A stretch of 64,000 nt of DNA from Pyronema omphalodes. Lineage: Eukaryota > Ascomycota > Pezizomycetes > Pezizales > Pyronemataceae. Under the pieces are notes generated by a model that saw only the letters and a list, made by a program, of their open reading frames with translations, ran no database searches and had not been told where the DNA came from. The DNA lies in assembly GCA_024516155.1 (NCBI GenBank), contig JAJJXM010000063.1:248001-312000 (forward strand), given 5' to 3'. The position numbers were made by a program, and so were the translations under genes. The number at the start of each line of letters is the position of its first letter. Positions within the stretch are counted from its first letter, which is position 1. Positions 10,270 to 38,526 of this stretch are shown here, piece after piece.

Positions 10270-11815
10270 TAAGTCTACAGCAAAAAGAAAAGGCATATAA
10301 TTCAGCTAACCACATAACAAAACTTATCACAGTCACTATCCGTCATAACTACAGTGTACTATATCCCGCAGTTGAGCAGTTGAATCATTGAATCGTTGAA
10401 TCGTCCAGGCCGTGGACGCAGTGGCAGTAGTTTAAGCAATTTAAGCAACTTAACCGGCTCAGCAGCTTAGCAGTTTATATACCCCCACCTCAGGAAAAAC
10501 AACAGCCATCATAGCTCATATAAAAGATTAGTGAAAAAGGATTGTTTGTCTTAAGACAAAAATTGCCATGGCTTCTACTTTTTTGGGCTGAGGGGGTGCG
10601 GGGGGGGGGGGGGGGGGGGGCGGGGATGCGGGTGTGGTTTGGGTTATGTTTTTGGGGTGGTGGGGTTTGTTGTGATGGGATTAGGTGGGATTTGTCGTTT
10701 CTAATTTCTGGTTTCTGGTTGAAGGGAGTGGACGACGTAAACTAAAATCAAAGGGAATAATTATTTCAAATTTACTTCTCCTTTTGTTATTTTTCTTTTC
10801 TTGTCGAGATGTCGAGATGTCGTAAGCTAGCAGCGTGCTAGAGCTTTGTCAGTTTGGATATATATCAAGCATCCCGAGGAACCGAGTAAACAACGTACAG
10901 TCTGTCTTAATAAGCAGTTTGGTCAGAGGGGGTGGTTTAGAGGTTTATATACACCCAGCTTAAAGCAACTATCAGCCATTGTAGCTCATAGAGGACTTTC
11001 AGATTTCAAAGATACACCAGTTAAAATGGTAATCTTCGATGGCTTCAATTTTTTACTTGATTTGTAGAGAGAGGGCATGGGTTCAGATCACAGTTTGCGC
11101 TGTGGTTCTTGTTTCGGTGAATCGGTTTATTTTGGTTTGACAGAGTGGACGATGTAACCAAAAATCAAAGGGAATAATAATCGCCAATTTAGGGTTTCTT
11201 TTTTTTTGTTTTTGTTTTCGGGATGTCGTACACTTTGCAGCTTTTCCGCGGTGTATAAGAAAGATCGGTCAGAAAATACATCAGTTATCATAACTTCTTA
11301 GCAACAGCGAATAGACTGTGCTGTTAGGCGGTTGATGGAGGTTTATATACTGCAAGTCAGTACGAATCCATAGCCATCAAGCTCATATCAAGTATCACTA
11401 GAATAACGGTCTATGTACGTTTATAACACTTTGCAATGGCTTCGATTTTTTAGTCCGAGGGGAGCGTGGGTTCAGATCATGGTTTGGGGGGTTTTTCTTT
11501 TTGTTTTGGTAAGATTCAGGATTCGGGATTCGGAGTTTTTGGTTTCCGGTTTTTGTTTCTTGGAGGCGCCATCTGTGTGGATGTTTCGAGGAATATGGGA
11601 GTATGGAACGAAGATTCATATGAGGGGAAATGATCATTTCGAATATAGTTTTCTTGCTATTCGACAGTTTTTGAGCTCTGCAGCGTTCCGGCTATCATGG
11701 AAAAAGTTTCCCTATGGTACATGTAATGGTATAAGTTTTATACAGTGTTTCTGTATATGTTTGCCTAGTGGGATAGAACAGGTTTATGATTTACATATAC
11801 ATTTTTAAACATGTG
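10270..11815 (+). repeat. Pol III-like cassette array, block 1 (3 loci)
   Basis: This is the left edge of the tandem cassette array. AGCCAT elements begin at 10504 (family A), 10974 (B) and 11372 (C), each preceded 28 bp upstream by TATATA. The first cassette has its B-box position overgrown by a G run. The block is led by a roughly 210-bp spacer (10271-10481: CTACAGCAAAAA, then TTGAATCATTGAATCGTTGAATC, then TTTAAGCAATTTAAGCAACTT-type short repeats). That spacer recurs before family-A loci near 20430-20650, 23880-24100 and 28180-28400. Only the repeat structure is directly seen; transcription is inferred. Confidence 0.85.
10974..11054 (+). ncRNA. Candidate Pol III small RNA, family B representative
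   Basis: An 81-nt candidate running from AGCCATT to the T6 run at 11049-11054. TATATA is at 10946-10951 (28 bp upstream), the A-box-like TAGCTCATA at 10982-10990, and the B-box-like GGTTCAGATC at 11080-11089, 25 bp past the T run. The 5' AGCCATT can pair with GATGGCT (one G.U) just before the T run. The interior holds an ACCA/TGGT mini-hairpin. Other B-type loci start at 19638, 24462, 26322 and 27863. Coding potential is absent. Transcript ends are predictions from motif positions only. Confidence 0.4.
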
Positions 11816-12110
11816 ATATACCCGTTTATACCACAACGGAAGAAATACAATCGCGGGGATAACAAAAAGATATAACCTTCCACGAGAAATACCATCCAGT
11901 AGATAACACAAAGATATAACATTCTATAAAATATACAATCCGTAGATAAAAAAAAGATATAACATTCTATAATCTAAACAAAAAATTCGGACTGAAAACA
12001 TCACAATACTAGCTAAATTACCAATGATTTATGGAAATAATGTGGTAGAATCTTTGTTTATTCAGACGAGCACTACTGAACTATATGATAAAAAAAAAAG
12101 AAAAAAAAAA

Positions 12111-12293
12111 CAAAAAACAAAAAACAAAAAACAAAAAACAAAAAACAAAAAACAAAAAACAAAAAACAAAAAACAAAAAACAAAAAACAAAAAACAAAAA
12201 ACAAAAAACAAAAAACAAAAAACAAAAAACAAAAAACAAAAAACAAAAAACAAAAAACAAAAAACAAAAAACAAAAAACAAAAAACAAAAAAC
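12111..12293. repeat. (CAAAAAA)26 tandem array
   Basis: About 26 perfect 7-bp CAAAAAA units, preceded by two A runs. The long open frames across it (Lys/Gln/Asn/Thr on plus, Phe/Cys/Leu/Val on minus) exist only because a 7-bp unit lacking stop codons is open in several frames. They are not genes. Confidence 0.95.
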
Positions 12294-12296
12294 GCC

Positions 12297-12468
12297 GTTG
12301 CCTTAGCTCATATCCAGCTTTCTGCAGTTTTTTAGTCAGTATTTTTTCCGCTGCAAGGCTGATGTTCTGCTTTTTTTCTTCCGTTTTTTTGTCCTTCCTG
12401 CCATGATGTGTCATAGCCTGTGATGCTCCCAGGTCAGCTGATATAGCATCAATCTCCTCCGCTACCAA
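12297..12468 (-). pseudogene. Fragment of unrecognised protein-coding sequence
   Basis: The minus frame reads as ordinary, charged protein (MVAEEIDAISADLGASQ, then a Lys/Glu-rich helix ending YELRQRR) before running into the CAAAAAA array. It looks like the truncated C-terminal part of an unrecognised protein whose continuation was replaced by the simple repeat. It could be a chance ORF. Confidence 0.2.
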
Positions 12469-12766
12469 AAGGTTGCCAGTGGCACCTTGCGCAATGGTTC
12501 CGGGTCCATATCACTGCAGATAGAGGACATTCAGATTTTGTTTTTGATTGAATGAGGTGTTCGAGTTAGATTTTGTCGAAGTCGAGGTACCATTGTCCCA
12601 CCTAATCGACATGACGGGGGATTGATATACCCTCTGTTTGTCATTCCTGTTTTAGGCGGCGCTATAAGTATTAGTTTTTCATTGTCAGGTTTCCACCTCC
12701 ATCTTGGTGTCATTATGACGTCAATGCCAACGTACAACCTCACTCGCCGTTAAGCCAACCGCTAAA

Positions 12767-13040
12767 ATGTCTCCCAAACTCCCCACAGCATCCCTAGACG
12801 AACCCCCGGTACCCTACAATCGCCACCTTATGGAACAAGGAGAGACAGAGGTGGTGGAAAAGAGGGAAATCGAGATGAAGGACAAGGTGGAGGAACGCAT
12901 TATGATCACAAGAAATCCGACGACAAAACATCATGCCTACTGGATTTGAAGAGGCCTGGCTCGCATTAGCAATCTTCCCAATCCTCGTGCAGGCTATCGG
13001 CTTGTGGTTTGACGGGCTGTCAACGATGAAGCGGATGTAA
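12767..13040 (+). pseudogene. Remnant of fungal membrane-helix N-terminus family
   Basis: A 60-codon frame (12767-12949) with hydrophilic Glu/Lys-rich sequence overlaps a second frame starting at ATG 12932. The second frame encodes TGFEEAWLALAIFPILVQAI and then GLWFDGLSTMKRM before TAA at 13038-13040. The second part resembles the short N-terminal helix (GFEvAglvLaifPLv...yadGl.tik) common on uncharacterised ascomycete proteins. That resemblance is from memory and needs a profile search. Nothing downstream continues it, so it is probably a decayed gene fragment. Confidence 0.3.
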
Positions 13041-13397
13041 GAACTTTTGGTTGGACGAGTTGGGCAATCGATTTATAAATCACGTATTGGTCAACGGAAG
13101 ATGATTGAAATCGATTGTATTGAAGAACTGGTTGGATTTTTCGGTTGGGAGGGGAAGGAATATGTAATCAGAAAATGTGGTGCACTTTGGTGATATGTAG
13201 AAATTATCATCAATAAACATATGTTCTCCAAAAACCCCATAGACCGATGTCTGAGTGTTTCCATGACGATGAAGAATCTATACATATGCTACAAGAGAGG
13301 ATGTGGTCTGTTCCGGCCTACGGCCGGTCCATTTTGTTGCCTCTACAAATCGAACTGTTGGTTCACAACTCCAACTGTTGATAAACTGGTTACTCGT

Positions 13398-15085: not shown

Positions 15086-15305
15086 ATTTTTAAACAAGCG
15101 ATCGGTATAAATGCTGTTTAGATTCTTCGCATGTATATGTTTTTTGGTGGGGAACTTGTATAACATATACAATCTTGGTGGCAAAAATGTACCATAGTGT
15201 TTAGTCTGGATATATATCCAACCTTCCGAGAAAATACAACAAAACAACTGTGTTCTTGTTGAGTAGTCGTGACTGTTTATATATAGCTAACGGGAATCAA
15301 CTATC

Positions 15306-15392
15306 AGCCATCATAGCTCATACCATTTGCTCTGTCCATATTCGCAGGAGAGAACCAGGTAAACCATGTCTGATTTATGGCTTCACTTTTTT
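15306..15392 (+). ncRNA. Candidate Pol III small RNA, family D representative
   Basis: An 87-nt candidate from AGCCATC to the T6 run at 15387-15392. TATATA begins at 15278 (28 bp upstream), TAGCTCATA is at 15314-15322, and the B-box-like GGTTCGAGTC is at 15417-15426. That is the closest match in the array to the eukaryotic consensus GGTTCGANTC. AGCCAT pairs with ATGGCT; the seventh position is unpaired. In most other D loci (18313, 21484, 25296) the interior has an AAACC/GGTTT hairpin. D loci are always followed by a family-A locus. Confidence 0.4.
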
Positions 15393-15777
15393 GGTTGATT
15401 TGTGCAGGGGGACGGGGGTTCGAGTCATCGCTGTGCAATGTTTTTGATAAGTGGTCTATGATCTTTGTTTCTAAAGGAGTTAATGATGTACATTGATATT
15501 GATATACCTGGGAATCCTACTTTTGAATTTGGGGCTATTTTCCGTTCTTTACATATCAAAGGTAGGAGCAGCATCTCGCATTTACAGTTGCTTTTTTTGT
15601 TTGCTTTGACTCTGCAGCTTTCCGTATTTTGGGGAGACAAGATTAGTGTGGATACATATATATATATATACCAAACCTGCTATCTTCTTTGCAACAAAGA
15701 AGCGTCTGTGTTGTTGAGTTGTGGAACAGTTGAGGCAGTGGGTGTGGTTTATATACCACCACCTCTAGCAAAACAAC

Positions 15778-15858
15778 AGCCATCATAGCTCATGTAAAAG
15801 ATTATTTAAAAAGGGTTTTCTGTCTTAAGATAAAAATTGCCATGGCTTCTACTTTTTT
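15778..15858 (+). ncRNA. Candidate Pol III small RNA, family A representative
   Basis: An 81-nt candidate from AGCCATC to the T6 run at 15853-15858. TATATA is at 15750-15755, the A-box-like TAGCTCATG at 15786-15794, and the B-box-like GGTTCGGATC at 15877-15886. The interior contains a CTTAAG palindrome (TGTCTTAAGAT; a perfect TTGTCTTAAGACAA in the copy at 10504). AGCCAT pairs with ATGGCT. This is the most abundant family (10 or more loci); the copy at 28426 has lost the T run. Confidence 0.4.
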
Positions 15859-16916
15859 AGTCCGAGGGGGTGCGGGGGTTCGGATCATGGTTTGCGCTGT
15901 GGTTCTTGTTTCAGTGAATCGTTTTATTTTGGTTTGAGAGAGTGGACGATGTAAATGTAACTGAGGCGGAATAATAATTGCGAATTTGCTCGCCTGTTTT
16001 TTTCGGGAGATGTAGTGAATCTTGCTGCGTTCCGACAATACGCGAGAAAGAGCAGCGAGAATATACATGATACATCCTAACTTATCAGCACCAGTGAACC
16101 GGCTGGGTTGTTGGGAAGCTGGGGGAGGCTATATATTGCAAGTCAGTACGAATCCATAGCCATTATAGCTCATATGAAGTATCACAAGAAGAACGGTCTA
16201 TGTACGTTTATAACGCTTTGCAATGGCTTCGATTTTTTAGTCCCAGGGTAGCGTGGGTTCGGAACATGGTTTGGGGGGTTTTTCTTTTTATTTTGGTGCG
16301 ATTCGGGATTTGGGGTTTTTGGTTTCTGGTTCTTGATTCTTGGGGGCGCGATTTGTATGGACGTTTCGAGGCATATGGGAGTATGAGACTGACATGAGGG
16401 GAAATGATCATTTCGAATATAATTTTCTTGCTATTCGAAAGTTTTTAGACTCTGCAGCGTTCCGGCTGTCAGGGAAAAAGATCAGTCTGGATATATATCC
16501 AACCTTCCAAGAAAATACACCAAAACAACCGTATTGTTGTTGTTGAGTAGTCGTGACTGTTTATATATAGCCAACGAGAATTAACTATCAGCCATCATAG
16601 CTCATACCATTTGCTCTGTCTATGTTCGCAGGAGAGAACCAGGTAAACCATGTCTGATTTATGGCTTCACTGTTTTGGTTCATTTATGCAGGGGGACGGG
16701 GGTTCGAGTCATCGCTGTGCAATGTTTTTGATAAGTGGTCTATGATCTTTGTTTCTAAAGGAGTTAATCATGTACATTGATATACCTGGAAATTTTTGGG
16801 ACTATTTTCCGTTCTTTACATATCTAAGGTAGAAGCATCATTTTGCATTTGGGGTTCCTTTTTTTATTTGCTTTGACTCTGCATCTTTCCGTATTTTGGG
16901 GAGACAAGATTAGTGT

Positions 16917-16952
<36 letters not shown>

Positions 16953-17476
16953 AACCTGCTATCTTCTTTGCAACAAAGAAGCGTCTGTGTTGTTGAGTTG
17001 TGGAACAGTTGAGGCAGTGGGTGTGGTTTATATACCACCACCTCTAGCAAAACAACAGCCATCATAGCTCATATAAAAGATTATTTAAAAAGGATTGTTT
17101 GTCTTAAGATAAAAATTGCCATGGCTTCTACTTTTTTAATCCGAGGGGGTGCGTGGGTGCGTGGGTTCGGATCATGATTCGGGGGTGGCTTTTGTTGTGG
17201 TGGGATTTCCGGTTTGTTTGTGATTTGTTTGAAAGGAGTGGATGAAGTAAACTACAATGACAGGGAATAACCATTTCAAATTTAGTGCTCCTTTTTTTTC
17301 TTTATTTATTTCCAGATCTCGTGATGTTGTAAGCTAGCATCGTGCGGGGATGTCAGGGTGAAGGAATAAGGTGGATTATCTAGGATATGCTGACTTTAGT
17401 TTTAGCAACAATGAAGCGGCTGTGTTATTGAATTGTGGAGTAGTGGTTTATATACAGTCAACCAAAACCAACTACC

Positions 17477-17557
17477 AGCCATCATAGCTCATATCGTATC
17501 CTATGGTTTCGATGGTACATTAGTGAAAATAGTGATCTTCGATGGCTTCGGTTTTTT
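17477..17557 (+). ncRNA. Candidate Pol III small RNA, family F representative
   Basis: An 81-nt candidate from AGCCATC to the T6 run at 17552-17557. TATATA starts at 17449 (28 bp upstream), TAGCTCATA is at 17485-17493, and GGTTCGGATC is at 17583-17592. All seven bases AGCCATC pair with GATGGCT. A second F copy starts at 20056 with the same interior. Its ATG frame stops within a few codons, so a peptide is unlikely. Confidence 0.4.
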
Positions 17558-20500
17558 ACTAGATTTGTACAGAGAGGGCATGGGTTCGGATCATGGTTTG
17601 GGGCTCGTTTTTTTCTTGTGGTGGGATTTGTGGCTTCTGGTTTTCGGTTTGAAGGGAGTGGATGATGTAAACTACATTGAGAGGGAATAATGATTTCCAA
17701 TTTGCTTTTCTTTTTTTTTCTCAAGATGCAGTGAATCTTGCCGCGTTCCGACAATACGAGAGAAAGAGCAGCGAGAATATACATGATATATCCTGACTTC
17801 TAAGCACCAGCGAACCGGCTGGGTTGTTGGCAAGCTGGGGGAGGTTATATACTGCCAGTTGGTGGATATCAACAGTCATTATAGCTCATATCAAGTATCA
17901 CTAGAATAACGGTCTATGTACGTTTATAACGCTTTGCAATGGCTTCGATTTTTTAGTCCGAGGGGAGCGTGGGTTCGGATTATGGTTTGGGGTTTTTTTT
18001 CTTTTTGTTTTGGTCGGATTCGGGATTCGGGGTTTTTGGTTTCTGGTTTTTAAATTTTGGGGGCGCGATTTGTATGGATGTTTCGAGGAATATGGGACTA
18101 TGGAACGAAGACTGATATGAGGGGAAATGATCATTTCGAATATAGTTTTCTTGCTCTTCGACAGCTGTTAGACTCTGCAGCGTTCCGGCTGTCAGGGAAA
18201 AAGATTACTCTGGATATACATCCAACCTTCCGAGAAAATACAACAAAACAACTGTGTTGTTGTTGTTGAGTAGTCGGGACTGTTTATATAGAGCTAGCGG
18301 GAATCAACTATCAGCCATCATAGCTCATACCATTTGCTCTATCTATGTTCGCAGGAGAGAACCAGGTAAACCAAGCCAGGTTTATGGCTTCACTTTTTTG
18401 GTTGATTTGTGCAGGGGGACGGGGGTTCGAGTCATCGCTGTGCAATGTTTTTGATGAGTGGTCTATAATCTTTGTTTACAAACGAGTTAATGATGTACAT
18501 TGATATTGATATACCTGGGAATCGTAATTTTGAATTTAGGACTATTTTCCGTTCTTTACATATCTAAGGTAGGAGCAGCATTTCGAATTTGGGGTTTCTT
18601 TTTTTTTTTTTTTGATTTCTTTCATTGTGCAGGTTGTCGTATTTCGGGGAGACAAGATTAGTGTGGATATATATATATCTATATATATATATACATCAAA
18701 CCTGCTATCTTATTAGCAACAACGAAGCGGCTGTGTTGTTGAGTTGTGGAACAGTTGAGGCAGTGGGTGTGGTTTATATACACCTGACTCAACGAAACCA
18801 TCAGCAATGTTAGCTCATATAAAGGGTCTATTGAAAAAGGCGTATCCGCCTCAGATATAGCCATGGCTTCTACTTTTTGCAGTCTGAGGGGGTGCGGGGG
18901 TGCGTGATTTCGGATCATGGTTTGGGTGTGGCTTTTGTTGTGGTGGGATTTCGGGTTTGTTTGCGATTTGTTTGAAAGGAGTGGATCACGTAAACTACAA
19001 TGAGAGGAAATAATTCTTTCGAATTTGGGAATTCTTTTTATTTTCCTTTTTTCTAGATCTCGTGAAGTTGGCTGGCGGCGTGCTGGAGGTGTGTCAGTTT
19101 GAATATATATGAAACATCCCGAGGGAACGAGTAAACAACATACCATCTTTCTTGATACGCAGTTCGGGCAGAGGGGGTGGTTTATATGAAGTCATATCAA
19201 ATCAACCGTCAGCCATTGTAGCTCATATATTGATCATTGACTTAAACCATTGCCCATGGTGACCTTCCATGGCTTCAATTTTTTACTTGATTCGTACAGA
19301 GGGACGTGGGTTCGGATCATGGTTTTGGGGTAGTTTTTTTCTTGTGGTCGGCATTGTGTTTTCTGGTTTTGGGATTGAAGGGAGTGGATGATGTAAACTA
19401 TAATGAGAGGGAATTATAATTTCAGATTTAGGGCTTCTTTTTATTTTTCTTGTTTCCGGAATGTCGTGATATCGTAGGCTAGCATCGTGCGAGAGGCCAG
19501 GGTGAAGGAATAGAGTGGATTATCTTGGATATGCTGACTTTAGTTTCGGCTGTGTTATTGAGTTGTGGAGTAGTTGAGTAGTTGAGGCAGTGAGTGTGGC
19601 TTATAGGTTAATATACAGCCAGCTTAAAGCAACTATCAGCCATCATAACTCATAGAGTACATGTCTCATCTCAAAGATACACCAGTCAAAATGGTAATCT
19701 TCGATGGCTTCAATTTTTTACGTGATTTGTACAGAGGGAGCATGGGTTCAGATCATGGTTTAGGGGTGGTTTTTTTCTTGTGGTGGGCATTATGGTTTCT
19801 GGTTCTGGGATTGAAGGGAGTGGATGAAGTAAACTACAATGACAGGGAATAACCATTTCAAATTTAGTGCTCCTTTTTATTCTTTTTATTTCCAGATCTC
19901 GTGATGTCGTAGGCTAGCATCGTGCGGGAAGTCTGGGGGAAGGAATAAGGTGGATTATCTAGGATATGCTGACTTTAGTTTTAGCAACAATGAAGCGGCT
20001 GTGTTATTGAATTGTGGAGTAGTGGTTTATATACAGTCAACCAAAACCAACTACCAGCCATCATAGCTCATATCGTATCCTATGGTTTCGATGGTACATT
20101 AGTGAAAATAGTGATCTTCGATGGCTTCAATTTTTTACTTGATTTGTACAGAGGGAGCATGGGTTCGGATCATGGTTTGCGCTGTGGTTCTTGTTTCGGT
20201 GAATTGTTTTATTTCGGTTTGAGAGAGTGGATGACGTAAACCTCAATGAGAGGGAATTATAATTGCGATTTTAAATTTTTTTTTTGTGTTTGAAAATGTC
20301 TAAACCTGGCAAGTGCCGCCAGTCTACTGTGATTTTGATTTTAATTTTAATTTTGGTGTTGATGTTGATGTTGACGTTAATTTGAATTCGAAACCGATTA
20401 TGATTATGATTATGATGATGACATTCATTACAGTTATAACCCAGTCTGCAACAAAAACAAAAGGCGTATAATTCAGCTAAACACATAACAAAATTTATCA

Positions 20501-22769
20501 CAGTCACTATCCATCATAACTACAGTGTACTATATCCGGCAGTTGAGCAGTTGAATCATTGAATCATTGAATCGTCCAGGCCGTGGACGCAGTGGCGGTA
20601 GTTTAAGCAATTTAAGCAACTTAACCGGCTCAGCAGCTTAGCAGTTTATATACCCCCACCTCAAGCAAAATAACAGCCATCATAGCTCATATAAAAGATT
20701 AGTGAAAAAGGATTGTTTGTCTTAAGATAAAATTTGCCATGGCTTCTACTTTTTTAGTCCGAGGGGGTCGGGGGTGCGGGGGTTCGGATCATGGTTTGGG
20801 TGTGTTTTTGTTTTGGTGGAACTTTTGTTTTATTTTGGAGGGAATCAATGATGCAAATGTACCTGAGGCGGAATAATAATTTCGAATTTGCTTTTCTTTG
20901 TTTTTTCTCGAGATGCAGTGAATTTTGCTGCGTTCCGACAATACGCAAGAAAGATCAGTGAGAATATACATGATATAACTAACCAGCTGGGTTGTTAGGC
21001 AGTTGAGGCGGGTTATATATTGCCAGTTAGTGGTAACTGACAGCCATTACAGCTCATATCAAGTATCACTAGATGAACGGTCTATGTGTGTTTAAGGAGT
21101 TTTTCAATGGCTTCGATGTTTTAGTCTGAGGGGAGCGTGGGTTCCGATTATGGTTTGGGGGGTTTTTCTTTTTGTTTTGGTAAGATTCAGGATTCGGGAT
21201 TCGGAGTTTTTGGTTTCTAGTTCTTGATTCTTGGAGGCGCGATTTGTATGGATGTTTCGAAGAATATGGGACTATGGAACGAAGATTCATATGAGGGGAA
21301 ATGATCACTTCGAATTTAGTTTTCTCGCTATTCCAAAGTTTTTAGACTCTGCAGCGTTCGGGCTGTCATGGAAAACGTTTAGTCTGGATATATATCAAAC
21401 CTCCCGAGGAAATACTACAAAACAACTGTGTTCTTATTCAGTAGTCGGGACTGTTTATCTATAGCCAATGAGAATTGACTATCAGCCATCATAGCTCATA
21501 CCATTTGCTCTGTCTATGTTCGCAGGAGAGATCCAGGCAAACCAAGCCAGGTTTATGGCTTCACTTTTTTGGTTGATTTGTGCAGGGGGACGGGGGTTCG
21601 AGTCATCGCTGTGGAATGTTTGTGATAAGTGATCTACAATCTTTGTTTTCAAAGGAGTTAATCATGTACAGTGATGTACCGGGAAATTGTACTTTGGAAT
21701 TTAGGACTATTTTCCGTTCTTTACATATCCAAGGTAGGAGCAGCATTTCCAATTTGGGGTTTCTTTTTTTTTTTTTTTTTGACTGCAGCTTTCCGTATTT
21801 TGGGGAGACAAGATTAGTGTGGATATATATATATATATATACCAAACCTGCTATCTTCTTAGCAACAACGAAGCGGCTGTGTTGTTGAGTTGTGGAACAG
21901 TTGAGGCAGTGGGTGTGGTTTATATACCACCACCTCTAGCAAAACAACAGCCATCATAGCTCATGTAAAAGATTATTTAAAAAGGATTGTTTGTCTTAAG
22001 ATAAAAATTGCCATGGCTTCTACTTTTTTTAATCCGAGGGGGTGCGGGGGTGTGGGAGTGCGGGGGTTCGGTTCATGGTTTGGGTGTGGTTTTTGTTATG
22101 GTGGGATTTGGGTTTCGGGGTTGGTTGTTTGTTGTTTGTGGTTACTGGTTTATGGTTGAAGGTGTGGATGACGTAAACCTCAATGACAGGGAATAGTTAT
22201 TTCGAATTTAGGCCCCTTTTTTGTTTTTGTTTCCGGGATGTCGTGGAGTTGACAGCGTACTGGAGGTCTGGTAGTTTAGACATATATCAAGCATGTCAAG
22301 TAACCGAGGAAACAACATACCATCATTCTTCATAACCAGCCGAGACATCGCGGATGGTTTATATAAAGTCATCTCAAATTAACCGTCAGCCATTGTACCT
22401 CATATATTGATAATTGAAATAAACCAATAACCAGGGTGACCTTCGATGGCTTCAGTTTTTTACTTGATTTGTACAGAGAGGGCATGGGTTCGGATCACAG
22501 TTTGCGCTGTGGTTCTGGTTTCGGTGGATCGTTTTATTTTGGTTGGAGAGAGTGGACGATGTAACTATAACTGAGGCGGAATAATGATTTCGAATTTGGA
22601 GTTTTATTTTCTTTTTTCGAGATGTCGTAAACGTTGCAGATTTCCCGCGGTCTATAAGAAAGATCGGTCAGAAGGTACATCAAATATCATAACTTCCTAG
22701 CAACAGCGAACAGAATGTGCTGTTAGGTAGTTCAGGCGGGTTATATACTGCAACTAAGCACGGATTAGC

Positions 22770-22857
22770 AGCCATCATAGCTAATATAGAAGCATTACTA
22801 AAAGAACGTTCTGTGTGTCAACTCATGGATGTAATACTTCAATGGCTTCAGTTTTTT
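22770..22857 (+). ncRNA. Candidate Pol III small RNA, family G representative
   Basis: An 88-nt candidate from AGCCATC to the T6 run at 22852-22857, with TATATA at 22742-22747 (again 28 bp) and an A-box variant TAGCTAATA. The B-box-like motif is GGTTCGGAAC near 22874. A relative starts at 30883; there the terminal stem is broken but the B-box motif (GGTTCGCATCC) is excellent. The interior is unrelated to families A-F. Confidence 0.35.
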
Positions 22858-23121
22858 GGTCCGGGGGAGCGTGGGTTCGGAACATGGTTTGGGTTGTGTT
22901 TTGTTCTTGGGGTGGGGTTTGTGGTTTGTAGTTTTTGTTTTTTGGAGGCGCGATTCGTTTGGATATTTTATGGAATATAGTACGTATGTGGTGAGGATGG
23001 ATGCCAGCGGGAAGCATCATTTTGAATTTGAACTTCGTTTTTGGTTTCGAAACTTTCCAACCCGTCAAGTGTTGTTAGGAGGCCAGGGCAGGTTATATAC
23101 GACTAGTCGTTTCAAACGAAC

Positions 23122-23210
23122 AGCCATCATAGCTCATATCATATGTGACAAAAAAGACAAGGATCATATGCGGTAAAGATACTAGGTTATTGTTATGGCT
23201 TCAAATTTTT
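23122..23210 (+). ncRNA. Candidate Pol III small RNA, family H (single copy)
   Basis: An 89-nt candidate from AGCCATC to a T5 run at 23206-23210. TATATA is at 23094-23099, exactly 28 bp upstream, and TAGCTCATA is intact. Its interior, which contains a CATATG palindrome, is not shared with any other locus in the window, while the framework is conserved. The B-box-like site is degenerate (GATTCGGTTC). Confidence 0.35.
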
Positions 23211-23511
23211 AGTCTGAGGGGAGCGTGGATTCGGTTCATGGTTTGCGCTGTGGTTGTTGTTTTGGTGGGATGTTTTGTTTTGGTTTGAAGGAGTGGATGA
23301 TGTAAACTAAAATGAGGGGAAATTATAATTGCGATTTTGAACTTTTTTTTTTGTGTTCGACAATGTCTAAACCTGGCAAGGTGCCGCCAGTCAGGGGCTA
23401 AGTTCAGTCTGGAATATATCAAACATCCCGAGAAAAGAACATACTGTCTGTCTTAATAAGAAGTTTGGGCAGAGGAGGTGGTTTATATACAGCCAACAAA
23501 CAACAAATATC

Positions 23512-23585
23512 AGCCATTGTAGCTCATATATTGATAATTGAAATAAACCATTGCCCATGGTGACCTTCCATGGCTTCAATTTTTT
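23512..23585 (+). ncRNA. Candidate Pol III small RNA, family E representative
   Basis: A 74-nt candidate from AGCCATT to the T6 run at 23580-23585. TATATA is at 23484-23489 (28 bp upstream), TAGCTCATA at 23520-23528, and GGTTCGGATC at 23611-23620. AGCCAT pairs with ATGGCT, and the interior carries an ACCAT/ATGGT hairpin with a TGCCC loop. Related loci start at 19211, 22388 and 27062. Confidence 0.4.
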
Positions 23586-24857
23586 ACTTGATCTAGCCCG
23601 GGGAGGTGTGGGTTCGGATCATGGTTTGAGCTGTGGTTGTTGTTTCGGTGGAATATTTTATTTTGGGCTGAAGGGAGTGCATGATGTAAACTAAAATGAG
23701 GGGAAGATATAATTGCGATTTTAAACATTTTTTGATGTTTGACAATGGCTAAACCTGGCAACGTGCCGCCAGTGTACTGTGATTTTCATTTTAATTTTGG
23801 GGTTGATGTTGATGTCGATGTTGATTTGAATTCGAATCCGATTATGATTATAATTATGACTATGATGATGACATTGATTACAGTCATAACCCAGTCTACA
23901 ACAAAAACAAAAGGCATAGAATTCAGCTAACCACATAACGAAACTTATCACAGTCACTATCCATCCTAACTACAGTGTACTATATCCCGCAGTTGAGCAG
24001 TTAAATCATTGAATCGTTGAATCGTCCATGCCGTGGACGCAGTGGCAGTAGTTTAAGCAATTTAAGCAATTTAAGCAATTTCAGCAGCTTAGCAGTTTAT
24101 ATACCCCCACCTCAAGCAAAACAACAGTCATCATAGCTCATATGAAAGATTATTTGAAAAGGATTGTCTGCCTTAAATGTAGCGATGGCTTCTACTGTTT
24201 TTAGTCTGAGGGGGTACGTGGGTTCGGTTCATGGTTTGTGTGTAGTTTTTGTTTTGTCCTCTGTCTCTAAGATGGTAAACTGGGAGTTTTATTTTCATTT
24301 TTTCTAGATCTCGTGAAGTTGACTGGCGGCGTGCTGGGGGTCTGGCAGTTGAGATATATATCAAGCATGTCAAGTAACCGAGTAAACAACATATTGTCTG
24401 TATGAATAAGCAGCTTGAGCGGAGGGGGTGGTTTATATACAGCCAGCTTAAACCAAATATCAGCTTTCATAGCTCATAGAGGACTTTCAGATTTCAAAGA
24501 TACACCAGTTAAAATGGTAATCTTCGATGGCTTCGATTTTTTACTTGATTTGTACAGAGAGAGCATGGGTTCGGATCATGGTTTGTGCTGTGGTTCTTGT
24601 TTCGGTGAATCGTTTTATTTTGGTTTGACAGAGTGGATGATGTAAACGAAAATCAAAGGGAATAAGAATTGCCAGTTTAGGGTTTCTTTTTTTCGGTTTT
24701 GTTTTCGGGATGTCGTAAACTTTGCAGTTTTCCCGCGGTTTATAATAAAGATCGGTCAGAAAATACATCAATTATACTAACTTCTTAGCAACAGCGAACA
24801 GCCTGTGCTGTTGGGCAGTTGAGGCGGGTTATATATTGCAAGTCAGTACGAATCCAT

Positions 24858-24938
24858 AGCCATTATAGCTCATATCAAGTATCACTAGAATAACGGTCTA
24901 TGTACGTTTATAACGCTTTGCAATGGCTTCGATTTTTT
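24858..24938 (+). ncRNA. Candidate Pol III small RNA, family C representative
   Basis: An 81-nt candidate from AGCCATT to the T6 run at 24933-24938. TATATA is at 24830-24835 (28 bp), TAGCTCATA at 24866-24874, and GGTTCGGATC at 24956-24965. Seven pairs form between AGCCATT and AATGGCT. In the C copies at 17874 and 27444 the 5' arm is AGTCATT, still paired through G.U. Further loci are at 11372, 16158 and 21042. The frame starting ATGGCTTCG reads into TAG, arguing against a coding role. Confidence 0.42.
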
Positions 24939-27900
24939 AGTCCGAGGGGAGCGTGGGTTCGGATCATGGTTTGGGGTTTTTTTCTTTTTGTTTTGGTGGG
25001 ATTCTGGATGCGGGCTTTTTGGTTTCTGGTTCTTGATTCTTGTGGGCGCAATTTGTATGGATGTTTCGAGGAATATGGGAGTATGGAACAAAGATTCATA
25101 TGAGGGGAAACGGTCATTTGGAATTTATTTTTCTTGCTATTCGACAGTTTTTGAGCTCTGCAGCGTTCCGGCTGTCAGGGAAAATGTTTAGTCTGGATAT
25201 ATATCCAACCTTCCGAGAAAATACAACAAAACAACTGTGTTGTTGTTGTTGAGTAGTCGTGACTGTTTATATATCGCCAACGAGAACCAACTATCAGCCA
25301 TCATAGCTCATATCTTTTGCTCTGTCTATGTTCGCAGGAGAGAACCAGGCAAACCAAGCCTGGTTTATGGCTTCACTTTTTTGGTTGATTTGTGCAGGGG
25401 TCCGGGGGTTCGAGTCATCGCTGTGCAATGTTTTTGATAAGTGGTCTATACTCTTTGTTTCCACAGGAGTTAATGATGTACATGGACATTGATATACCTG
25501 GGAATCGTACTTTTGAATTTGGGGCTCTTTCCCGTTCTTTACATATCTAAGGTAGAAGCATCATTTTGCATTTGGGGTTTCTTTTTTTTTTTTTTTTTTG
25601 ACTGCAGCTTTCCGTATTTCGGGGAGACAAGATTAGTGTGGATATATATATATATCAAACATGCTATCTTCTTAGCAATAACGAAGCGGCTGTGTTGTTG
25701 AGTTGTGGAACAGTTGAGGCAGTGGGTGTGGTTTATATACCACCACCTCTAGCAAAACAACAGCCATCATAGCTCATATAAAAGATTATTTAAAATGGAT
25801 TGTTTGTCTTAAGATAAAAATTGCCATGGCTTCTACTTTTTTTAATCCGAGGGGCGCGTGGGTGCGGGGGTTCGGATCATGGTTTGGGTGTGTTTTTTGT
25901 TTTGGTGGAATTTCTGTGTGGTTGTGGAGGAGGTTAATGATGTAAATGTACCTGAGGCGGAATAATGATTTCGAATTCGCTTTCCTTTGTTTGTTCTCAA
26001 GAAGCAGTAGATTTCGTAAAGAGCCGCTAGTCTGGGAATCACGACAAAGATTAGTTTGGATATACATCAAGAAATATCCTAACTTCGAAGCATGAACGAA
26101 CCGGCTGTGTTGTTAGGCAGCTGAGGCAGGTTGTATACTGCAAGTCAATACGAATCCATAGCCATTATAGCTCATATAAAAGAGATCATAACCTCATGAG
26201 CTGAGTAGTGTCGAGTAGTTGGGACAGCTTGAGGCAGTGGTAGTGGTGGTTGGGGTTTACGCAGCTTGAGCAGCTTGATCAGCTTGAGCGGTTTATTCAC
26301 AGCCAACTCAAACCACCTATCAGCCATCATAGCTCATAGAAGACGATCTGATTACAAAGATACACCAGTTAAAATGGTAATCTTCGATGGCTTCGGTTTT
26401 TTACTTGATTTGTACAGATCGGGCATGGGTTCGGATCATGGTTTGGGTTATTTCTTTTGGTGTGGTGGGATTTGTTGCGTAGTTTGAAGAGCGGCTATCA
26501 TGGGGACGTATACGAGGGGAAATAATCATTTCAAATTTGGATTTTTTTCAAGATGCAGTGAATTTTGCAGCTTTCCGCCAGTCTGGTATAAATTTAAGTC
26601 TGGATGTATATGTCCAATACCCTATCTTCGAAGCATCAACGAACCGGCTAGGTTGTTAGGCAGCTGAGGCAGGTTTCATACCGCAAGTTAGCAGGGATTG
26701 ACAGCCATCATAGCTCATATAGGTTGAAAAAGGATAATCTGCCTTAGATAAAAGTTGCGATGGCTTCTACTTTTTTTAGTCCGAGGGGGTGCGTGGGTTT
26801 GGATCCTTGTTTCGGTGTGGTTTTTGTTATGGTGGGATTGGTGGTTGCTGGTTTGAAGGGTGTGGAGGATGTAGATGAAAATGTGGAATAATCGTAATTG
26901 TGAATTTGAGCGTTGTGTTTGTTTTTTCAAGGTGTCGTGAAGTTTGCAGCGTACCGACAAATTATATTACAAACATCCCGAGTCAACAACATACAGTCTG
27001 TCTTGATAAGCAGCCGAGACATCGCAGATGGTTTATATAAAGTCATCTCAAATGGACCGTCAGCCATTGTAGCTCATATATTGATCATTGAGATAAACCA
27101 TTGCCCATGGTGACCTTCCATGGCTTCAATTTTTTACTTGATTTGTACAGAGAGGGCATGGGTTCGGATCATGGTTTGGGTGTGTTTTGTTTTGTTTTGG
27201 TGGAAGTTTTGTGTGGTTGTGGAGGGAGTTAATGATGTAAATGTACCTGAGGCGGAATAAGGATTTCGAATTTGCTTTCCTTTTTTTCTCTGGAAATGTA
27301 GTGAATCTTGCTGCGTTCCGACAATACGCGAGAAAGAGCAGCGAGAATATACATGATATATCCTGACTTCTAAGCAACAGCGAACCTGCTGGGTTGTTGG
27401 CAAGCTGGGGGAGGTTATATACTGCCAGTTGGTGGATAGCAACAGTCATTATAGCTCATATCAAGTATCACTAGAGGAACGGTCTATGTGTGTTTAAGGA
27501 GTTTTTCAATGGCTTCGATTTTTTAGTCCGAGGGGAACGTGGGTTCGGATCATGGTTTGGGTTATGTTTTTGGGGTGGTGGGGTTTGTTATGATGGGATT
27601 TGGGGTTGCTAGTTTTTGGTTTCTGGTTGAAGGGAGTGGAGGATGTAAACAACAATCAAAGGGAATCATAATTTCGAATTTAGGGATTCTTTTTTTTCTT
27701 TTCATTTCCGGGATGTCATGGAGTTGACCGAGTGCTAAAGGTCTGGCAGTTTAGATATATATCAAACATCTCAAGTAACCGAGAAAACAACATACCATCT
27801 TTCTTGATACGCAGTTTGAGCGGAGGGGGTGGTTTATATACAGCCAGCTTAAAGCAAATATCAGCCATCATAGCTCATAGAGTACTGTCTGATTTATATT

Positions 27901-29045
27901 TTACTTGATTTGTACAGGGGGCGTGGATTCGGATCATGGTTTGCTCTGTGGTTGTTATTTCGGTGGAATGTTTTATTGTTGGCTGAAGGGAGTGCATGAT
28001 GTAAAGTAAAATGAGGGGAAATTATAATTGCGATTTTGAACTTCTTTTTGTGTTTGAAGATACGTGCCGCCAGTGTACTGTAATTTTCATTTTGATGTTG
28101 GTGTTGGTGTTGACGTTGATGTTGATTTTGACTCGAATCCGATTATGATTATGATTATGATGATGACATTGATTACAGTTATAACCCAGTCTACAGCAAA
28201 AAAAAAAAGGCATATATTCCAGCTAACCACATAACAAAACTTATCACAGTCACTATCTATTATAACTACAGTGTACTATATCCCGCAGTTGAGCAGTTGA
28301 ATGAATCATTGAATCGTTGAATCGTCCAGGCCATGGACGCAGTGGCAGTAGTTTAAGCAACTTAAGCAATTTAAGCAATTTATGCAGCTTGGCAGTTTAT
28401 ATACCCCCACCTCAAGCAAAACAACAGCCATCATAGCTCATATAAAAGATTATTTAAAAAGGATTGTTTGTCTTAAGACGAAAATTGCCATGGCTTCTTT
28501 AGTCCGAGGGGGTTCGGGGGTTCGGGGGTTCGGATCAGGGTTTCGGGGTGGGTTTTTTTCTTGTGGTGGGATTTGGGGTTTCTGGTTTCTGGTGGGATTT
28601 GTGGTTTTTGGTTTGAAGGGAGCGGTTTGAAAGAGTGGATGACGCAAACTACAATGAGAGGGAATAATAATTTCGAATTTAGGGATCCTTTTTTTTGTTT
28701 TTGTTTCCGGGTTGTCGTGGAGTTGGCTGGCGGCGTGCTGGAGGTCTGGCAGTTTGGATATATATCAGACATCCCAAGTCAATAACACACAGTCTGTCTG
28801 AATAAGCAGTTTGAGCGGAGGGGGTGGTTTATATAAACCCAACTTGAACCAAATATCGGCCACTATAGCTCCTATGGTATTTCATGTACACAGCTCACCG
28901 CCATGGCTGTCGATTTTGGCAGGAGGGACGTGGATGCAAGTCGTGATTTGTGCGGTGTTTCCCTGTGGTACAAAAAAAAGGTGTTTAATCAAACCACACT
29001 TTAAACCACAAAAGGTGTTTAATTCAAACACCCACAAAATTCATT

Positions 29046-29366
29046 TACTAAACACCTCTTTAAACACCTACTAAACACCTTTAAACACCTACTAAACACC
29101 TCTTTAAACACCTACTAAACACCTCTTTAAACACCTACTAAACACCTTTAAACACCTACTAAACACCTCTTTAAACACCTACTAAACACCTTTAAACACC
29201 TACTAAACACCTCTTTAAACACCTACTAAACACCTTTAAACACCGATTTAAACACCGATCCAAACACCTTTAAACACCTTTAAACACCGATCTAAACACC
29301 TACTAAACACCTTTAAACACCGATTTAAACACCTTTAAACACCTTTAAACACCGATTTAAACACCT
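29046..29366. repeat. AAACACC subterminal tandem array
   Basis: Dozens of AAACACC motifs are arranged as TTTAAACACC, TACTAAACACC and GATTTAAACACC variants in a roughly 11-23-bp rhythm inside the left end of the TIR element. Such arrays of short motifs are typical transposase-binding or foldback regions in non-autonomous DNA transposons; that role is inferred. Confidence 0.9.
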
Positions 29367-29843
29367 TGCACAATAGTGGTTTGATCAAGCACCTCAGATA
29401 TTTTTTAAATGTTTTAAATTAATTACTAAACCACTCGCTCATTATATAACATGTCTCTAGCTATTGCCAGGTCCTCTATCTATACATACAGGAACCTCCC
29501 ACCTCCCTCCTCACCCCTCTTACTCCTGCTCCTGCTCTCTGTATAGTACCATTCGCTTTGTGCCTTTTTTAATTGACCCTTACATATGCTGGAATCATGG
29601 ATCGCTTCAATAAATAGACTTAGGTTTTCTGAGCATCCTGTTTGTCTGGTTAGCATTGTAGATATTTGTGGGGTTGGTTTGCAGTACTTGACTCAGCGAG
29701 TATCTAGAAGTTCATATCCCCCCCCCCCCCACCCCTCTCTCCCTTTTGTCTCTCCGGTGGCGTATGGTGTATGAACTAGCAAATTCTGTAGAGGGACAAA
29801 CATTTGACATGAGGAAAAACTTACAGTCAAACAAGACGGAAAG

Positions 29844-30101
29844 ATGGAGGTGGAGAAACAAGTGAATGAAATGGATGAAGAACGAGGAACAACAACGGCA
29901 GAACGAACAGAACATAAGGAAGGGATGCGCACTAAGGCAATATCCACTTCCATCAACAAACATAAGCAGAACACAGCTCTACAGTTTAAAACTGAATGTT
30001 CAGTAGAACACTGCAGGGTGATTTATATGAACCATGGAAAAGCCATCCCTAGGAAGTGGACTGTAGATGTTTATTTGAACATCAGAGGACAGTTCAAATA
30101 A
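29844..30101 (+). CDS. Small ORF inside the TIR element
   Basis: An 85-codon frame from ATG to TAA, hydrophilic and Glu/Lys/Thr-rich. It has no recognisable motif and no similarity to a transposase that I can see. It may be a chance ORF in the unique middle part of the element. Confidence 0.15.
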   Translation: MEVEKQVNEMDEERGTTTAERTEHKEGMRTKAISTSINKHKQNTALQFKTECSVEHCRVIYMNHGKAIPRKWTVDVYLNIRGQFK

Positions 30102-30114
30102 ACCCCGAAGAATA

Positions 30115-30540
30115 AGCGAAGAAGAAGGTGTTTATTTGAACACCCCTAGGGTGTTTAAATAAAGACCGAAGAATAAGCGAAAAAGAAGGTGTTTATTTAA
30201 ACATCCTTAAACACCCCTAGGATGTTTAAATAAACACCGAAGAATAAGCGAAAAAGAAGGTGTTTATTTAAACACCCCTAGGGTGTTTAAATAAACCCCT
30301 CAAAAAAAAAAATCAAGGTAGTTGTTTAACTAAACAACGCTGGGTGGTTTAGCTAAACACCGTAAATGACACTAAACAACTTCGGTGTTTAGGGGTGTTT
30401 AACTAAACACCTTTAAACAACGATGGGTGGTTTAGCTAAACACCTTAAATCAGACTAAACAACTTTGGTGTTTAGGGTGTTTAACTAAACACTTTCGGTG
30501 TTTAGCTAAACCACGAAGGTGTTTGAACTAAACCACTGTC
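30115..30540. repeat. GGTGTTT palindromic subterminal repeats
   Basis: The right-hand counterpart of the AAACACC array. Modules such as GGTGTTTATTTAAACACC and GTGTTTAGCTAAACCAC are themselves near-palindromic, separated by a repeated GAAGAATAAGCGAAAAAGAA spacer. The motif orientation is opposite to that of the left end, making the element a large foldback. Confidence 0.88.
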
Positions 30541-30568
30541 ACTCGTTTTCTTGTACCATAGGGTGTTT

Positions 30569-31790
30569 CTTGGTGTGGAATTTGGAGTTTGTGGTTTGTG
30601 GTTTGTGGTTTGTGGTTTGTGGTTTGTGGTTTGTGGTTTTTGGTTTTTGGTTTGCAGGGAGAATGTAGTGAGGATGGATAGGAGGGGAATTATAATTGCG
30701 TATTTGGTGTTTCTTTCCTTTTGTTTTCCTCGACATGTCGTAAACGTTGCAGCTTTTCCGCGGTCTATAATAAAGATCGGTCAGATGATACATCAATTAC
30801 ACTAACTTCTTAGCAACAGCGAACAGCCTGTGTTGTTAGGAAGCTGAGGCGGGTTATATACTGCAAGTTAGCATGGATCATCAGCTATCCTAACTCACAT
30901 AGAAGCATTACTACAAGAACGTTCTATGTTTAACCTCATAGAGGTAATAATTCAATTACTTCAGTTTTTTGGTCCGGTGGAGCATGGGTTCGCATCCCAG
31001 TTTGTGCGATGTTTTTGTTTTGGTGGAACTTTTGTCTTATTTTGGAGGACATCAATGATGCAAACGAACAGGAGGCGGAATTATAATTGCGAATTTGCTT
31101 TCCTTTTTCCTCTGGAGATGCAGTGAATCTTGCTGCGTTCCGACAATACGCGAGAAAGATCAGCGAGAAAATACATGATTGTCCTGACTTCTAGGCAGCA
31201 ACTAACCAGCTGGGTTGTTGGGAAGCCAGAGCAGATCATTTACTTCAGGTTAGCCCGGACTAACAGCCATCATAGCTCATATAAAATACGTTTTGGCAAA
31301 TGATTGTAATTGTAGTTTGGCATGGCTTCAAACTTTTGGTCCGGAGAAGCGTGGGTTCGGATTATGGTTTGGGTGGATTTTCTGTGGTGGGATTTGTGAT
31401 GTAGATGGATATGAGGGGGAATCGCATTTTGGATTATTCTTTTGTGTGCTCGAAAATGACTAAACCTGGCAGCTTACTGAAGGACCCGGATAGATTTCAG
31501 TCTGGATATATATATCAAGAAATATCCTAACTTTGAAGCATCAACGAACTGTCTGGATCGTTAGGAAGCTGATGGATGCTATATTCCGCAAGTCAGTGAT
31601 GATTGATTGCCATCATAGCTCATATAAAATGTTTATCTAAAAAAAAAGTGCACATCGGCAAAACTCATTGGGGAACGACTTCAATGTTTTGGTTCGAGGG
31701 GTGCGTGGCTTCATATGATGTTTCGACGCATGGTTCGAAGCATGGTTTGTACTGGTTCTTGTGATTCTGGTTTTTGGTTTGAAGGGGGGA
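30569..31790 (+). repeat. Pol III-like cassette array, block 3 (3 loci, right edge)
   Basis: After the TIR element the interrupted cassette resumes, with a (GTTTGTG)n stretch at 30587-30656. Three more loci follow, with AGCCAT-type starts at 30883 (G-like), 31265 and 31608. They are increasingly degenerate: the terminal stem is lost at 30883 and 31608, and the T run is only four long at 31265. The array fades out near 31780. TATATA lies 28 bp upstream at 30883 (30855-30860). Confidence 0.8.
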
Positions 31791-38491: not shown

Positions 38492-38526
38492 GCGTGTTGG
38501 TTGAATAATTATTCGATCGAACGTAG

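Follow-up and report, generated by a model that had tools for sequence, protein, structure and literature searches.

A tandem array of predicted Pol III small-RNA genes with constant paired ends and lineage-specific loops in Pyronema omphalodes

Described small RNAs and the extent of the array

Among small RNAs made by Pol III, the vault and Y RNAs of vertebrates combine paired ends with a diverse loop; an A-box-like sequence opens the vault RNAs, and the B box of their genes is internal. The fungal milR-1 of Neurospora has a hairpin precursor. Dictyostelid Class I RNAs, according to the parts of PMC7919456 used here, are encoded by a large, frequently clustered gene family, and their ends pair in a ∼6-bp helix that is maintained via compensatory change; a conserved 11-nt motif directly follows the 5' arm, and the remainder is variable in sequence and structure. 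These RNAs measure 42-65 nt in D. discoideum with AAG...CUGU ends, many of the genes have a downstream T run, a DUSE lies ∼60 nt upstream of the start, and the family is reported to be absent outside dictyostelids (PMC7919456). In Neurospora, the main milRNAs are made by Pol III with a T run just downstream of the loci, and neither an A nor a B box is predicted for milR-1, as given in the portion of the source consulted (PMC3547838). Saccharomyces cerevisiae SNR6 is described as having a TATA box at -30, an internal A box, and a B box past the terminator, with boxes A and B separated by 202 bp (PMC9136082, the part cited here).

The window (the whole 64-kb stretch of P. omphalodes DNA that was analyzed) contains 39 cassettes at 10470..31721 of the + strand, with RNA starts from 10504 to 31608 and every copy in the same orientation. 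An earlier note had counted about 39 tandem cassettes on one strand, and the same number was retained after filtering: the head motif with up to three substitutions gave 49 rows on the + strand and 22 on the - strand, and 10 of the former (13983, 29429, 31224, 32998, 33612, 38871, 50618, 56012, 56536, and 59512) were excluded for having none of the other signals. The - strand rows within the array correspond to near-palindromic letters of the cassettes themselves. Allowing two mismatches at most, the head occurred 36 times, always on the + strand, versus 0.07 occurrences expected from 100 dinucleotide shuffles. Spacing was 336-490 nt in 32 of the 38 gaps, two of which were large (3.9 kb, 11372-15306; 2.0 kb, 28858-30883), and five copies were wrecked (26160, 27863, 28858, 30883, and 31608). 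The cassettes are as follows (extent, strand, RNA start, description).

10470..10606, +, 10504, lineage A; without B box, G run in its place
10940..11093, +, 10974, lineage E
11338..11482, +, 11372, lineage C
15272..15430, +, 15306, lineage B; exact B box
15744..15890, +, 15778, lineage A
16124..16269, +, 16158, lineage C
16556..16714, +, 16590, lineage B; exact B box
17023..17177, +, 17057, lineage A
17443..17596, +, 17477, lineage D
17840..17985, +, 17874, lineage C; AGTCAT, U-G pair
18279..18437, +, 18313, lineage B; exact B box
18769..18920, +, 18803, diverged lineage A; one stem mismatch, poor B box
19177..19322, +, 19211, lineage F
19604..19758, +, 19638, lineage E
20022..20175, +, 20056, lineage D
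20641..20794, +, 20675, lineage A
21008..21153, +, 21042, lineage C, sub-lineage C2; altered B box
21450..21608, +, 21484, lineage B; exact B box
21915..22078, +, 21949, lineage A
22354..22500, +, 22388, lineage F
22736..22887, +, 22770, diverged lineage C
23088..23241, +, 23122, lineage G (single)
23478..23624, +, 23512, lineage F
24092..24234, +, 24126, diverged lineage A
24428..24581, +, 24462, lineage E; one stem mismatch
24824..24969, +, 24858, lineage C
25262..25420, +, 25296, lineage B; exact B box
25728..25882, +, 25762, lineage A
26126..26221, +, 26160, truncated; without 3' half
26288..26441, +, 26322, lineage E; TATA altered
26669..26809, +, 26703, diverged lineage A; TATA altered
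27028..27174, +, 27062, lineage F
27410..27555, +, 27444, lineage C, sub-lineage C2
27829..27939, +, 27863, internal deletion
28392..28540, +, 28426, lineage A; T run only TTT
28824..28946, +, 28858, degenerate
30849..31000, +, 30883, degenerate
31231..31367, +, 31265, lineage H (single); TATA altered
31574..31721, +, 31608, degenerate

Promoter and terminator parts and the terminal helix

The same ordered signals, attributed by the earlier note to every cassette, form a full set in 27 of 39 copies (TATA near -29, A-box-like TAGCTCATA, AGCCAT/ATGGCT pairing, T4+, and a downstream B box); the copy at 10504 has no B box. Taken singly, TATA at about -29 was present in 35/39 copies by a strict test and TAGCTCATA with at most one change in 38/39; this sequence fits the TRGYNNA core, but the GG that comes farther on in tRNA A boxes is absent. 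The terminal stem had six of six pairs in 32/39 and at least five of six in 34/39, an oligo-T terminator was found in 33/39 (T4+) or 30/39 (T5+), and a B-box-like element followed in 31/39, with the five copies without ATGGCTTC scored as failing all three of these parts. The claimed B-box-like element thus stands in most of the array, but the exact GGTTCRANTC was seen in only 5 of the 34 copies tested. Most inexact boxes read GGTTCGGATC, with G at the position of A in tRNA-type B boxes, and because 29/34 are inexact, weak or silent copies may be numerous. The distance between boxes A and B is ∼80-107 bp. The RNA predicted from the 27 complete cassettes is 74-89 nt, identical to the range proposed earlier, with AGCCAU at its 5' end and AUGGCUUC-U(n) at its 3' end. 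Internal T4+ runs occurred in 5/34 array interiors compared to 8.5 after shuffling (P 0.10), a depletion that is not significant, and in 4 of 16 dispersed copies compared to 4.4.

The letters of the helix change yet remain paired in relatives on other contigs: the arms are AGCCAT/ATGGCT in the array, and AGCCAAT/ATTGGCT, AGTCAAT/ATTGGCT, and AGCCAAG/CTTGGCT on contig C167. Over 28 distinct arm combinations, helix positions 5-7 were paired in 67 of 84 cells versus 50.6 with shuffled arms, and none of 20000 arm shuffles reached the observed pairing, the counted sequences being related. Alignment A1 alone, also counting related sequences, gave pairing that was matched by 25 of 500 shuffles.

Compared with the described systems, the cassettes resemble vault and Y RNAs in their paired ends and diverse loop and gave no Rfam match; the B box lies past the terminator, whereas it is internal in vault RNA genes. 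By design, the Dictyostelium Class I RNAs are the closest analogue, not a relative. In the source parts used, Class I RNAs and the predicted cassette RNAs are both short and of clustered families, with a short terminal helix showing compensatory changes, a T run, and a conserved motif beside the 5' arm followed by a variable remainder, a likeness judged on design only (PMC7919456). The two differ in length and ends (42-65 nt, AAG...CUGU versus 74-89 nt, AGCCAU...AUGGCUUC-U(n)) and in the upstream element (DUSE at ∼60 nt versus TATA at -29); those parts of the source describe no downstream B box for Class I genes, and, unlike Class I, near-duplicates of one cassette lineage recur along a single 21-kb array (PMC7919456). 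Neurospora milRNA genes share with the cassettes a fungal host, Pol III (predicted for the cassettes), and a terminal T run, but milR-1 is without the A and B boxes that the cassettes have, and the portion of PMC3547838 consulted mentions no tandem array.

Dispersed relatives, host U6 genes, and lineage evolution

Relatives of the cassette, in small clusters, were found on contigs C157, C167, C168, C193, C200, and C211. We examined 27 genome loci, 24 picked by exact head match alone and 3 as upstream flank, so chosen independently of TATA, tail, and B box except for two relatives first met through a tail plus B-box pattern. A model based on 17 copies from the array together with 4 of the dispersed relatives gave 23 matches (E ≤ 1) in 9 of the 27 loci, 12 at head matches and 11 beside them; since it also scores TATA, tail, and B box, its match calls depend on those parts as well. 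At 15 of the 24 loci picked by exact head match, the model gave no full match. The GGCT arm and T run were present in 16 of the 23 dispersed matches and missing from 7; at -29, a TATA-like box with ≤2 mismatches stood in 14 of these 16 copies, and the exact GGTTCGANTC B box was seen in 11. Predicted RNA lengths of the relatives were more variable than 74-89 nt. The combined TATA and head pattern was matched 59 times compared with 16 for a reversed control, including 32 rows (26 cassettes) in the array and 14 on C167.

Of five host U6 matches in the genome, the two above the cut-off form an inverted pair on C156, and both have an internal A-box-like TTAGCATGG, T8, and then GGTTCGATCC (B box) 18 nt beyond. 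They share three parts with the cassettes, namely the A box, the T run, and a B box past it, at a box A-B distance of ∼80 bp, whereas their TATA (TACATAA) is only weak. SNR6, in the cited part of its source, shares all four parts at longer range, 202 bp rather than ∼80-107 bp (PMC9136082). The cassette product, unlike those of SNR6 and the host genes, is not U6. TATA, start, A box, terminator, and B box keep their register even among dissimilar copies from other contigs, and the host U6 genes have three of these parts (A box, terminator, and B box) as well; at the level of sequence, the reading as an array of Pol III-type small-RNA genes, put forward in the earlier note, is therefore well supported.

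We propose that each cassette would be a Pol III gene that starts at an A, with TATA ∼29 nt upstream, an A box inside the transcript, and, on its 3' side, an oligo-T terminator with the B box directly past it. The product would be a 74-89-nt RNA with its ends joined in a 6-7-bp helix, constant UAGCUCAU adjoining the 5' arm, and in the array a lineage-specific loop of 40-56 nt. Copy number would grow as single cassettes or groups of several are duplicated at the DNA level. We infer Pol III transcription, an RNP, and a regulatory role: the constant ends may stabilize the RNA and bind a common protein, each lineage's loop may be specific to an RNA or protein partner of that lineage, and the family may consist of trans-acting regulatory RNAs that work like Dictyostelium Class I RNAs.

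Within lineages, the loops are better kept than the outer spacers. Divergence was 0.100 in the interior, 0.307 (-300..-61) and 0.246 (-60..-33) in the outer upstream spacer, 0.191 in the near spacer (-21..-1), and 0.274 in the downstream spacer, some flank values being inflated by flanks that are no longer homologous; the head (0.048) and B box (0.053) changed little, and the 3' arm ATGGCTTC not at all (0/424 cells). The interior was less diverged than the outer flanks in 50 of 53 within-lineage pairs. The terminator-to-B-box stretch was as little diverged as the loops (0.100), and less diverged than the loops in lineages C and B, so loop conservation may in part reflect spread of a TATA-to-B-box block by duplication or gene conversion instead of selection on the RNA. 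Between lineages, likeness was confined to a stretch from about -34 (about TATA) through just past the B box; the ∼50-nt middle was unalignable (0.470 versus 0.475 shuffled), and, because the upstream spacer was just as unlike (0.545 versus 0.535), faster-than-neutral diversification of the loop is unsupported. The array and its relatives probably represent a birth-and-death family of Pol III RNA genes.

Alternative readings and meaning

The cassettes could instead be promoter decoys or chromatin insulators, that is, TFIIIC/TFIIIB sites kept for chromatin organization, with the RNA a by-product and the block spread by duplication and conversion. The well-kept promoter parts and the equal conservation of loops and terminator-to-B-box stretch fit this account, which we nevertheless judge unlikely since neither the invariant 3' arm nor the T run is a TFIIIC site and both helix arms change together in relatives.

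We give slightly less credence to a Pol III-driven SINE-like retroelement or other transposon family whose nested copies piled up, despite the scatter of relatives over six contigs and the retrotransposon genes that adjoin the array. The predicted transcript includes neither TATA nor B box, so that reverse-transcribed copies would be without both, which argues against a SINE; furthermore, all 39 copies are head-to-tail on a single strand, lineage likeness extends only from about -34 to just past the B box, and nine loops gave no match outside the array in a search of limited sensitivity. The earlier note had named dispersal as an ordinary transposon with conserved ends as evidence against its reading; the unit is indeed dispersed, on six other contigs, but not in the transposon sense, given the restricted likeness, small clusters, and external promoter parts. 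With regard to the A-rich or LINE-like tail of SINEs, a T run closes the predicted cassette RNA.

A very unlikely reading is that the cassettes encode microRNA-like precursors that Pol III transcribes in the manner of Neurospora milR-1: the Pol III origin and downstream T run of the main milRNAs agree with it, but milR-1 is described without predicted A and B boxes, unlike the cassettes (PMC3547838, the part consulted). Nor was a long hairpin of the milRNA-precursor type found among the 34 array RNAs, in which the longest helix was 9 bp; their loops showed no extra structure (mean z -0.07), the whole predicted RNAs had a mean z of -0.79 with 6/34 below -2, and a search for loop targets found no long one. 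It is highly improbable and, as it stands, refuted that the cassettes belong to a known kind of RNA gene (snoRNA, tRNA, vault, Y, or SL RNA) that went unrecognized by eye: although the A-box-like start is similar to tRNA and vault RNA 5' ends, no Rfam family profile reached its gathering score in the window or in any of the nine loci that hold relatives, ARAGORN found no tRNA, and among 34 array RNAs a C box near the 5' end occurred in none and a D box near the 3' arm in 2. At E ≤ 2, Rfam returned two weak, implausible matches in 15200-18000. The cassette RNA family is apparently undescribed.

Beyond the Pol III gene family itself, we suggest only tentatively, as a possibility that we hold to be doubtful, a fungal Pol III class of constant ends and variable loops with an origin separate from that of dictyostelid Class I RNAs. 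In such a class, tandem duplication would provide new loops kept by selection, and a trans-acting repertoire would diversify on a single protein scaffold, perhaps in connection with fruiting-body development.

The array offers a natural promoter series for fungal Pol III work, with exact and altered B boxes in copies whose TATA and A-box spacing is nearly fixed, and a single deletion of it would take out an entire branch of the family. If transcribed, this would be a family of dozens of RNA genes, unmatched in Rfam 15, in a filamentous ascomycete, and the dictyostelid design of paired constant ends, motif, variable loop, and clusters would have arisen again, its second occurrence being in another builder of fruiting bodies.

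Cassette array and its predicted promoter parts

A search with the constant head motif, which includes AGCCAT, returned 49 rows on the + strand, of which 10 were dropped and 39 kept, and the roughly 39 tandem cassettes with the same ordered signals described in the earlier note were confirmed (39 of 39 on that strand). With ≤2 mismatches allowed, the head motif occurred 36 times versus 0.07 expected. Strict counting over the 39 cassettes gave a TATA in 35, an A-box-like motif in 38, a 6/6 stem in 32, a run of at least four T in 33, and a B-box-like motif in 31; all features were jointly present in 27 cassettes, in which the predicted RNA spanned the same 74 to 89 nt that had been proposed before. 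In every one of the 34 array copies with a GGCT arm and T run, the TATA (≤2 mismatches to TTATATA) began 29 nt 5′ of the initial A of AGCCAT; the same held for 14 of the 16 dispersed copies with these features. Array B boxes, where present, started 89 to 116 nt after the RNA start, which places them beyond the terminator. Departures from GGTTCRANTC, mostly A to G, were seen in 29 of the 34 array B boxes tested, and the exact GGTTCGANTC B box was found in 11 of the 16 dispersed copies tested.

Five U6 matches were detected in the genome, two of them above the cut-off. In these two, a T8 run is followed after 18 nt by GGTTCGATCC; an internal GATTAGCATGG is present, and the TATA is weak (TACATAA). 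The two form a gene pair located as follows.

C156:1054401-1055300 (locus L009), inverted, convergent U6 gene pair within 0.9 kb, both genes with a terminator and an identical B box downstream of it

The yeast SNR6 gene (PMC9136082) has the identical order of promoter parts with a longer A-B distance. Because host U6, like SNR6, has a similar order of parts, the arrangement is evidently in use by the organism. The TATA, A box, T run, and downstream B box, together with the U6 parallels, make the earlier reading as Pol III genes likely on sequence grounds, and we consider the cassettes probable members of a Pol III gene family. Depletion of internal T runs was not significant and provides no proof of Pol III transcription. 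The upstream palindrome GATATATATC near −100 was rejected as a cassette part, since no more than 16 of the 39 cassettes carry it with at most one change.

Other features in and around the array were the following.

8539-9918, + strand, PEX29-like protein, 89% identical to a Pyronema omphalodes CBS 100304 protein; next named hits Wilcoxina and Sphaerosporella, 61 to 62% identical, which places the host in Pyronema or very near it
12091-12320, (AAAAAAC)29 repeat and, directly after it, CCTTAGCTCATATC, resembling a cassette-head remnant, within the array's 3.9-kb gap
29046-29366 and 30092-30492, TTTAAACACC / TTTAAATAAACACC-rich minisatellites, in the 2-kb stretch that separates cassettes 28858 and 30883
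33404-43429 and 49368-50543, right of the array, frames of Ty3-like retrotransposons (RT, RNase H, integrase, gag, chromodomain) plus another reverse transcriptase frame
40526-40731 and 47942-48091, related short tandem repeats AACCGCCGTAATTCCAAATAA..., ∼7 kb apart, near the retrotransposon frames

Relatives elsewhere in the genome

The 60.8-Mb genome (232 contigs) was searched, and 27 loci were examined: 24 covering every listed non-array exact AGNCANNNNAGCTCAT match and three upstream stretches of C193, the contig that carries the array and whose positions 248001-312000 make up the window. R1, a profile model built from 17 array copies and four relatives, gave 23 matches at E ≤ 1 in nine of the 27 loci and none in the other 18.

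C157, 5 matches
C167, 10 matches on both strands within 19 kb
C193, 2 matches, 79 kb upstream of the first cassette
C211, 4 matches
C200, 1 match
C168, 1 match

Twelve of these were the head matches themselves and 11 lay beside head matches; of the 23, the three with the poorest E values (0.03-0.08) are doubtful, and seven lack a GGCT arm with a T run. A TATA-plus-head pattern matched 59 times genome-wide versus 16 for the control, with 32 rows (26 cassettes) in the array, 14 on C167, one on C157, and one at 179 kb on C193; the 11 matches outside those places were not above the control level. Seven of the C167 places were new (− strand, 173.6-220 kb), and three are known from ∼40 nt each. One further pattern search added one place each on C167 and C202, as pattern matches only, and another located 28 places within the array plus a single one on C157. 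Since model and pattern matches accumulate on C167, this contig seems to carry a second, looser cluster of the gene family, ∼70 kb long.

C167:173600-246600, both strands, apparent second cluster, mostly with another terminal helix, AGYCAA/TTGGCT

Separately, 11 U1-like matches at E ≤ 0.001 were noted on C101, C172, C200, C124, C157, C218, and C212, including four within ∼5 kb on C172; only one exceeded the Rfam cut-off, and they are possibly U1 variants or pseudogenes.

Terminal helix and loops of the predicted RNAs

The terminal pairing in the array, AGCCAT/ATGGCT, hardly varies and so says little, with 25 of 500 shuffles of the array alignment scoring as well. In the relatives the helix varies and is mostly still paired; examples are AGCCAAT/ATTGGCT, AGTCAAT/ATTGGCT, and AGCCAAG/CTTGGCT. 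In some relatives the pairing is broken. Only helix positions 5 to 7 are a fair test of pairing, because the 3′ arm was located by its GGCT; there, 67 of 84 cells were paired (28 distinct arm combinations) versus 50.6 in shuffled data, and none of 20,000 shuffles scored as high, kinship being uncorrected. One row (4494 of locus L044) had an internal GGCT taken as the arm, which lowered the score. No common interior fold or conserved loop structure was seen among 34 array RNAs, for which the mean folding z was −0.07 for interiors alone and −0.79 for whole RNAs, and the longest helix was 9 bp.

At a 60% identity threshold, 34 interiors fell into seven groups. Between groups (464 pairs), identity was 0.907 for the head and 1.000 for the tail; interiors (0.470 versus 0.475 shuffled) and the far upstream spacer (0.545 versus 0.535) showed no excess likeness. 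For the 53 same-lineage pairs among 27 cassettes of six lineages, interiors differed at 0.100 per aligned site versus 0.191 for the near spacer (−21 to −1); outer spacers differed at 0.246, 0.307, and 0.274, all above the interior. In 50 of the 53 pairs the interior was less diverged than the outer flanks taken together, some flank values (above 0.4) reflecting flanks that are non-homologous after unequal exchange. In our reading, these values suggest purifying selection on the loops within a lineage. Homogenization of the TATA-to-B-box block by duplication or gene conversion may also account for loop conservation: the tail-terminator-B box stretch, mostly untranscribed, likewise differs at 0.100 and, in lineages C and B, is less diverged than the interior, and the near spacer of lineage A is kept as well as the interior (0.067 versus 0.064), whereas tail-to-B-box divergence exceeds that of the interior in lineages A, F, E, and D.

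Capture of loops from genes or repeats, as in piRNA or CRISPR systems, was rejected: nine joined loops matched the array only (29 of 29 matches) in a search that scored 12 first-look candidates and to which short or weak complementarity is invisible. When the 14-mers of 12 loops were compared with 217 kb of sequence from the window flanks and the examined loci, there were two overlapping hits, equivalent to one 15-nt sense match, with 0.7 hits expected.

Comparison with known RNAs and proposed roles

Nothing but host U6 was recognized as a known RNA family by Rfam gathering score, Rfam at E ≤ 2, or ARAGORN; at E ≤ 2, 6A RNA (20.5 bits) and tmRNA (9 bits) fell far under the cut-off. A pattern running from head to tail had a single match in viral contigs, among open frames of a phage-like contig (20.5 bits with the model, E 0.0043 over the locus); it lacked a TATA-like box at −29 and was taken as chance, as was a 22-nt plasmid match (E 0.2). 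Among the open-licence papers listed, none was seen to describe a fungal RNA family of this kind, and no paper combined Pyronema and polymerase III.

The closest design is that of the dictyostelid Class I RNAs (PMC7919456): their genes are clustered, the RNA ends form a short helix with compensatory changes, a motif follows the 5′ arm, the remainder is variable, and many of the genes have a T run downstream. The predicted cassette RNAs differ in length, end letters, and promoter, and Class I genes are reported there to be absent outside dictyostelids, so the likeness is one of design and not of membership.

Lineage order recurs in blocks along the array (B-A-C, B-A-D-C, B-A-F-E-D-A-C ...), which indicates that copies multiply by DNA duplication of single or several cassettes. 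The constant ends would provide stability and bind a shared protein, and the loops would confer specificity; partners, if RNA, would pair shortly or imperfectly, because the nine loops had no match outside the array. That the family serves the fungus as a repertoire of regulatory RNAs is a tentative idea, which we hold to be possible though rather unlikely.
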